Shown here one piece after another: positions 12,074 through 12,596 of a stretch of 64,000 bases of DNA. The stretch spans positions 124,001-188,000 of the forward strand of contig NZ_OMPS01000044.1 of the NCBI RefSeq assembly GCF_900313035.1. Direction: 5' to 3'. Below the pieces are notes generated by a model. The model worked only from the letters and a program-made list of their open reading frames with translations. It was not told where the DNA came from and did no database searches. Origin of the DNA: Ruegeria sp. EL01 (GTDB taxonomy: Bacteria; Pseudomonadota; Alphaproteobacteria; Rhodobacterales; Rhodobacteraceae). Each line of letters opens with the position of its first letter. Position 1 is the stretch's first letter. Both the position numbers and the translations under genes were made by a program.

Positions 12074-12145
12074 AACCGAGTCCTTTTCCTTGCAAACGTA
12101 GCCCCCGGGTCGGTTTCAAGGGGCAGCTCCATTCGGCCCTACCGG

Positions 12146-12167
12146 TTATTAACTGACCAGTCAATAA
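12146..12167. promoter_or_regulatory. BetI-like palindromic operator upstream of betB
   Basis: A 22-bp imperfect palindrome reading TTATT-A-ACTG-AC-CAGT-C-AATAA. Its arms match except at the two positions flanking each ACTG/CAGT core. The TTGACTGGTCAA-like centre, on the reverse strand, is the kind of site bound by the TetR-family choline sensor BetI. It lies 73-94 bp before the betB start. Motif resemblance and position only; no betI gene is present in the window. Confidence 0.5.
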
Positions 12168-12211
12168 CACGGCCGAGCAGCCTGGGTTTCAGGTGATCCA
12201 CCGTCGAAAGC

Positions 12212-12244
12212 TTGAAATATTAACCAAATGTTCTATATATGTTC
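12212..12244 (+). promoter_or_regulatory. Promoter with LexA box (GTTC-N7-GTTC)
   Basis: TTGAAA (12212-12217) and TATATA (12234-12239) with a 16-bp spacer form a good sigma-70-type promoter. A direct repeat, GTTC at 12230-12233 and GTTC at 12241-12244 separated by exactly seven bases, overlaps the -10 box. GTTC-N7-GTTC is the established LexA operator of alphaproteobacteria, so the arrangement predicts repression by LexA and induction by DNA damage. The start codon at 12267 follows after a GAGGA ribosome site. Confidence 0.8.
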
Positions 12245-12266
12245 TACACAGTCAGAGGATACACCG

Positions 12267-12596
12267 ATGGCCCAGTCTGCTCGAACATTGGCTCCTAACG
12301 GCCCTACAAATGATTATCACCTGTTGCCGGTGACAGACCGCCAGATGCGCTATGCCCGCGCAATTGCCGAACAGTCAGCGCTTGAGATTCCTGTTGAGGC
12401 GCAGCACGACCGGCGGATGCTGTCGGATTGGATCTCGACACATAAGCCCCGGGCTGCATCCCCTTTTGACAGCTACCCGACCGGAAAGCAGGTCGCCTTT
12501 GCCGAGCGGATTTCACGCAGCAAACGCCGCCCGATCCCATCCGAGTGTTTCCGCGACAAACAGCAGATGTCACGCTGGATCGACCAGAACAGATAA
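12267..12596 (+). CDS. Putative SOS-regulated tandem-module small protein
   Basis: 109 basic residues. The protein is two copies of one 39-residue module: residues 22-60 and 71-109 share T-x-[RK]-Q-x-x-[YF]-A-x-x-I, then I-P-x-E, D, and S-x-W-I at the end. Similar short modules occur, as I recall, at the C-termini of some topoisomerase III-like and plasmid DNA proteins; I cannot confirm that here. I chose the ATG at 12267 because an in-frame ATG at 12228 lies inside the promoter/LexA box, while GAGGA sits about 6 bases before 12267. The LexA box implies a role in the DNA-damage response. No function is assigned. Confidence 0.82.
   Translation: MAQSARTLAPNGPTNDYHLLPVTDRQMRYARAIAEQSALEIPVEAQHDRRMLSDWISTHKPRAASPFDSYPTGKQVAFAERISRSKRRPIPSECFRDKQQMSRWIDQNR

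Follow-up and report, generated by a model that had tools for sequence, protein, structure and literature searches.

A putative LexA-controlled gene of Ruegeria encodes two stand-alone copies of a topoisomerase III C-terminal module

In a 64,000-nucleotide stretch of the Ruegeria sp. EL01 genome (contig NZ_OMPS01000044.1, positions 124,001 to 188,000; hereafter the window), a short gene on the forward strand (12267-12596, with its ATG at 12267 and its stop codon at 12594-12596) encodes a basic protein of 109 residues built from two copies of one small module. By computation, the box in its promoter is conserved, its coding sequence is under purifying selection, the module is duplicated, and the module is homologous to the tail of DNA topoisomerase III. 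We lean, with modest confidence, toward an SOS-induced basic protein, scattered through the Rhodobacteraceae and their plasmids, whose two topoisomerase III tail modules, standing alone, would bind single-stranded or branched DNA; that LexA controls the gene in vivo, that the protein binds DNA, and that it acts in repair are what we infer. LexA sitting on the box over the -10 element would block transcription, and RecA-driven cleavage of LexA after DNA damage would release the promoter. The product, two small modules predicted to be all-helical that elsewhere form C-terminal repeats of topoisomerase III and here come without the enzyme, would then bind single-stranded or branched DNA arising in damage and repair, with the tandem arrangement giving avidity, and the bound protein would protect or organize such intermediates.

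The promoter lies immediately upstream, on the same strand. A -35 element, TTGAAA (12212-12217), is separated by 16 nucleotides from a -10 element, TATATA (12234-12239), which falls inside a LexA box of the form GTTC-N7-GTTC (GTTCTATATATGTTC, 12230-12244), and a ribosome-binding site, GAGGA (12255-12259), precedes the start codon. An earlier note on this DNA had described the same promoter, box, ribosome-binding site, and reading frame, and each was found where it had placed them; its equation of GTTC-N7-GTTC with the LexA operator of Alphaproteobacteria agrees with the consulted part of PMC3323433, which gives this sequence as the LexA motif of the class. Across 41 aligned Ruegeria-type upstream regions, both GTTC half-sites were at least 90% identical to the window, as was CTTGAA at the -35 position (at least 80% for the last A of TTGAAA), and every base of GAGGA was at least 70% identical. 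The -10 element was conserved only in part, with identity bands by position of 50, 90, 90, 20, 90, and 70%; the leader was mostly 70-90% identical, and the 40 nucleotides before the -35 element and most of the spacer had drifted.

On its own, the bare box carries little weight, as it is not clearly above chance in this genome. The window holds 4 matches against 2.05 expected (4 or more in 14 of 100 shuffles), and the whole genome holds 207 against 180 for the reversed control pattern. Since the bare motif occurs near its chance frequency, the box alone proved little and the comparison across homologues decides. An extended motif, GTTCNNNNWWTGTTCTA, which was chosen after the homologues had been seen, has three matches in the genome and none for the control pattern; they lie at this locus, at uvrA, and at a VOC-like gene. 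The strong LexA-type box before this last gene, labeled VOC/glyoxalase-like from sequence reading, is at positions 1501-1515 of locus L145.

The scan of orthologous loci that the earlier note had proposed found the box widely kept. At least 535 relatives were found and the best 80 kept, over half of them from Ruegeria or close kin; the exact box was present at 79 of these 80 loci, between -150 and +10 of the match, while the flanks of the same loci gave a background of 24 matches in 1.77 million positions on both strands, or 0.002 per stretch. At least one window neighbor was kept at 49 of the 80 loci, contexts differing elsewhere; the other 31 had no orthologue-level match to the six window neighbors over flanks of up to 6 kb per side (shorter on small contigs), and the exact box was still present at 30 of the 31. 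A search of the family found the gene in 30 of 149 genomes, with the exact box at 33 of 36 copies, and six of eight plasmid loci, hand-picked from 60 listed matches, had it as well; the three sets overlap in part, the first two sharing some genomes. For this gene, as for the alphaproteobacterial LexA regulon, the operator overlies the promoter and is conserved. One homologue (L015) is interrupted by an in-frame TAG behind an intact LexA box, which may reflect decay of this copy or an error in sequencing.

Elsewhere in this genome, the reversed box (GAAC-N7-GAAC) lies upstream of lexA, recA, and imuB, where it is tandem in the case of imuB, and the forward box lies upstream of uvrA, a pattern in keeping with a host LexA that would use this operator type; lexA and recA were identified by Pfam family, whereas uvrA, imuB, and the other unannotated gene names come from sequence reading. 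Promoter conservation, together with the known alphaproteobacterial operator, suggests that LexA controls the gene. No mention of it was found in the consulted parts of the LexA predictions for Dinoroseobacter (PMC6473078) or of a paper on oxidative stress in Ruegeria pomeroyi (PMC9769926), and the open-access literature searched yielded no paper naming the gene or the module.

The protein is basic, as had been claimed, with a computed isoelectric point of 10.1 and a range of 9.5-10.8 over 45 sequences including that of the window (alignment A3, made up of the window protein and its counterparts from 44 of the 80 loci). Purifying selection is apparent from a median ratio of nonsynonymous to synonymous substitution (dN/dS) of 0.075 over 593 of the 820 pairs of 41 Ruegeria-type sequences, the pairs kept being those with dS above 0.1 and not saturated; the ratio is rough because the median dS of 1.54 is near saturation. 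The reported duplication of one module at residues 22-60 (module 1, 12330-12446) and 71-109 (module 2, 12477-12593, the better conserved copy) was borne out in three ways. The two halves align with a score of 59, against a shuffle mean of 19 and reached in none of 2,000 shuffles; hhalign joins the module 1 and module 2 alignments at 98.3% (E = 1.5e-14); and AlphaFold2 (AF2) predicts a helix-loop-helix pattern twice in the full protein (mean pLDDT 87, pTM 0.51), with helices at residues 24-37, 49-59, 73-86, 92-95, and 98-108. Residues 68-109 alone (alignment A7, 40 rows) were modeled with a pLDDT of 96 and a pTM of 0.71. At 4-14 residues, the predicted helices are too short to span a membrane, a statement based on AF2 and made without a membrane predictor. 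A membrane-spanning helix is a trait of the membrane-bound SOS division inhibitors of the SidA type. Module 2 carries a near-invariant RxxRR run, and many non-basic residues (Q, A, P, C-F, and S-x-W-I-D) are also invariant or nearly so. A further alignment (A1) comprised 22 of the 36 family copies, L015 being among those left out.

The earlier note had suggested comparing the module both with profile libraries and with the C termini of topoisomerase III; the libraries gave no convincing model, but the topoisomerase III C termini matched, and this link is real by hhalign, by profile, and by collinear alignment. An alignment of topoisomerase III modules only (A6), in which 12 of the 14 rows come from other families, matches module 1 at 98.5% (E = 2.9e-15) and module 2 at 98.2% (E = 3.5e-14) in hhalign. 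Used as a profile, it recovers the window gene (E = 1.7e-7) and its paralogue in this genome (E = 1.2e-7). In L037, a Rhodobacteraceae topoisomerase III whose topoisomerase domains were confirmed by Pfam, three modules stand at the end, and the last two are collinear with the window protein (score 171, against a maximum of 50 in 500 shuffles). By homology, the module belongs to the C-terminal family of DNA topoisomerase III, although the 109-residue protein has no Pfam match to Toprim or topoisomerase domains and is not itself the enzyme.

Wider searches with the module returned the same association; since they scored only part of the candidates, their counts are lower bounds. The A2 module profile (33 rows, three from L037) matched in at least 16 of 385 genomes of the class, three of them from the window's family. 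Ten of the other 13 matches read as DNA topoisomerase III by sequence, two of these (L148 and L134) with the enzyme only partly in frame; one is a small protein with a single module (L128), and two (L130 and L135) were set aside as likely chance. At the phylum level, A6 matched in at least 11 of 398 genomes, five from the family; G812, from another class, has a topoisomerase III with three modules, G881 and G661, from other classes, have small single-module proteins, and the remaining three matches are in G673, G691, and G293. Small proteins of 106 and 116 residues from other classes (L178:1477-1797 and L179:1351-1701) carry one module each, in the C-terminal half. In plasmid records, matches to the L037 tail are annotated "DNA topoisomerase" (4 of the 30 rows listed: H61, H62, H64, and H70) and "hypothetical protein." Two architectural variants were observed: L129 and L132, two of the ten enzymes above, read as topoisomerase III with one module and then an extended stretch resembling a helicase, in open frames of 1301 and 1332 residues (the helicase label comes from sequence reading), and the topoisomerase III proteins of L149, L151, L152, and L156 end, beyond the modules, in a further shared segment (YGNK...GARY...GWYAPPG) resembling a small domain of its own.

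No convincing match to the window protein was found in Pfam or NCBIfam, and PHROGs and PADLOC gave nothing. The best candidates, TfoX_N in Pfam (E = 0.23) and a beta-lactamase exception model in NCBIfam (E = 0.2), were rejected as weak. Over the 45 homologues, Pfam returned seven scattered labels, such as TfoX_N in 11 (best E = 0.0056), DUF7511 in three (0.0029), and TyeA in two (0.00034), and NCBIfam returned nine, such as TyeA in five (0.034) and an ADC beta-lactamase model in two (0.0081), all dismissed as weak and inconsistent. By sequence, the Protein Data Bank (PDB) gave nothing for the protein and four weak matches for the module profile (best E = 0.17). A viral fold library gave one match (E = 1.7e-4), to an uncharacterized Aeromonas phage protein at 25% identity; searches by sequence matched none of 50,697 phage records, and the 59 pattern matches seen in viral contigs included no relative.

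Binding of single-stranded or branched DNA would be the simplest reading of the protein for the following reasons: (i) other repeats at the same position in type IA topoisomerases hold single-stranded DNA, as the consulted part of PMC10969213 describes for type IA C-terminal repeats of other folds, (ii) the protein is strongly basic, and (iii) its arginines are near-invariant. In a bolder version, which we offer tentatively and rate below even, a helical DNA-binding module shared with topoisomerase III would work here as an enzyme-free tail that, once induced by damage, clamps or coats single-stranded and branched DNA and travels through the Rhodobacteraceae on conjugative plasmids.

Several observations weigh against an SOS-induced, DNA-binding protein. 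The exact box is missing at one of the 80 loci (L094, one half-site base changed), at three family copies (L030, L031, and L036), and at two plasmid loci (L166 and L170). When eight further boxes were picked from 100 listed in the genome, one (at imuB) preceded a recognizable SOS gene and the other seven were not clearly before SOS genes, so an exact box is not sufficient. Presence in 30 of 149 family genomes means that the gene is dispensable for many. The L037 modules are inside both A2 and A6, and the profile tests are therefore not fully independent. No PDB structure reached E = 0.001 in Foldseek, whether the query was the whole protein or one module. Finally, PMC9369019, as far as consulted, describes other repeat types, with no helical repeat or stand-alone form, and gives the tail of Escherichia coli TopB as basic and without repeats, so that nucleic acid binding is argued from position and charge rather than from a measured relative.

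This genome has no recognizable topB; the topB model matches one frame here, of 879 residues and at 199.9 bits, which is TopA-like in size and score. Over the 149 family genomes, the clear topB-like matches among those listed were in G067, G022, and G006 (split); G022 and G006 carry the gene, and the other 28 of the 30 carriers had no topB-like match among those listed. The protein therefore probably works without topoisomerase III, here and apparently in most carriers. For the same reason, DNA seems a likelier target than a topoisomerase, although the protein may affect TopA. Free modules could act as a decoy that draws DNA or a partner away from topoisomerase III (or TopA) and so lowers the activity of that enzyme during SOS; the collinearity with the last two modules of the Rhodobacteraceae enzyme fits this and TopA could still be the target, but the scarcity of topB-like matches among carriers tells against it, and we consider it the most doubtful of the explanations weighed. 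Somewhat less improbable, though still unlikely, is a protein-protein adaptor, with the module docking SSB, a RecQ-type helicase, or another such partner both here and in topoisomerase III, and with SOS induction bringing that partner to damaged DNA or keeping it away. The many invariant or nearly invariant non-basic residues are what a docking surface would have, and the C-terminal domains of type IA enzymes can bind partners (PMC10969213, part consulted), whereas the near-invariant basic run and an isoelectric point near 10 favor nucleic acid and no partner gene is a constant neighbor at the loci examined, the plasmid copies standing in varied surroundings.

The plasmid copies also raise the prospect of a plasmid-borne factor for establishment or stability, since domesticated by some chromosomes, with the box timing expression to single-stranded plasmid entry rather than to repair. 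The gene is present in 150 of 72,556 plasmid records, 76 of them typed conjugative, and two of the eight plasmid copies stand beside ArdC-like, zincin, DUF3768, or ParB-family genes. Against this, the counts are not independent, a single genus, Pseudosulfitobacter, supplying 73 of the 150 records; 62 of the 150 are typed non-mobilizable, and other plasmid copies lie among metabolic genes. Most Ruegeria loci, moreover, represent one site beside a betB-like and a K+-channel-like gene, some on contigs over 1 Mb. We regard such a plasmid function as decidedly unlikely, and the damage-induced DNA-binding protein remains our preferred reading.

The order at most Ruegeria loci is betB, the gene, the K+ channel gene, trhO, pncA, and pncB. 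A 24-bp near-perfect palindrome (GTTATTAACTGACCAGTCAATAAC, 12145-12168), upstream of the divergent betB-like gene and partly conserved in Ruegeria, as the 41 aligned regions show, is perhaps a TetR-type (BetI-like) operator. The paralogue in the same genome (L031:5123-5428), without an exact LexA box, lies on a plasmid-like contig (C41, 56 kb) near genes read as DUF3768-like, ParB-like, and a toxin-antitoxin-like pair. Near the Octadecabacter arcticus homologue, a plasmid gene (L166:8480-9832) is annotated "type VI secretion protein ImpB," a name that suggests a mislabeled SOS polymerase of the ImpB/UmuC type.

If true, the proposal would bring to a large marine bacterial family and its plasmids a damage-response gene whose LexA operator is strongly conserved. 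It would also define a helical module of the topoisomerase III tail, one without a model found in Pfam, NCBIfam, or PHROGs, and the function of the stand-alone modules would inform the role of the tail on topoisomerase III itself.

Among known systems, the closest by regulation is the alphaproteobacterial SOS regulon (lexA, recA, uvrA, and imuA-imuB-dnaE2), which uses the same GTTC-N7-GTTC operator, although this gene is absent from the SOS genes named in section 7 of PMC3323433, the part consulted. By sequence, the gene appears to be a new member of this known SOS kind, from a domain that has no model in the libraries searched. By module, the closest is alphaproteobacterial TopB, which carries the same ~40-residue module in one to three copies in the C-terminal region of the enzymes examined; unlike in TopB, the modules here stand alone, without a Toprim or topoisomerase domain and under a LexA-type promoter. 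The Topo_C_Rpt (PF13368) and Topo_C_ZnRpt (PF01396) repeats of TopA are likewise small tandem repeats at type IA C termini, reported to hold single-stranded DNA (PMC10969213), and neither was matched in Pfam searches of the window protein, L037, or the 45 homologues; those repeats are four-stranded beta-sheets, whereas this module is predicted to be all-helical.
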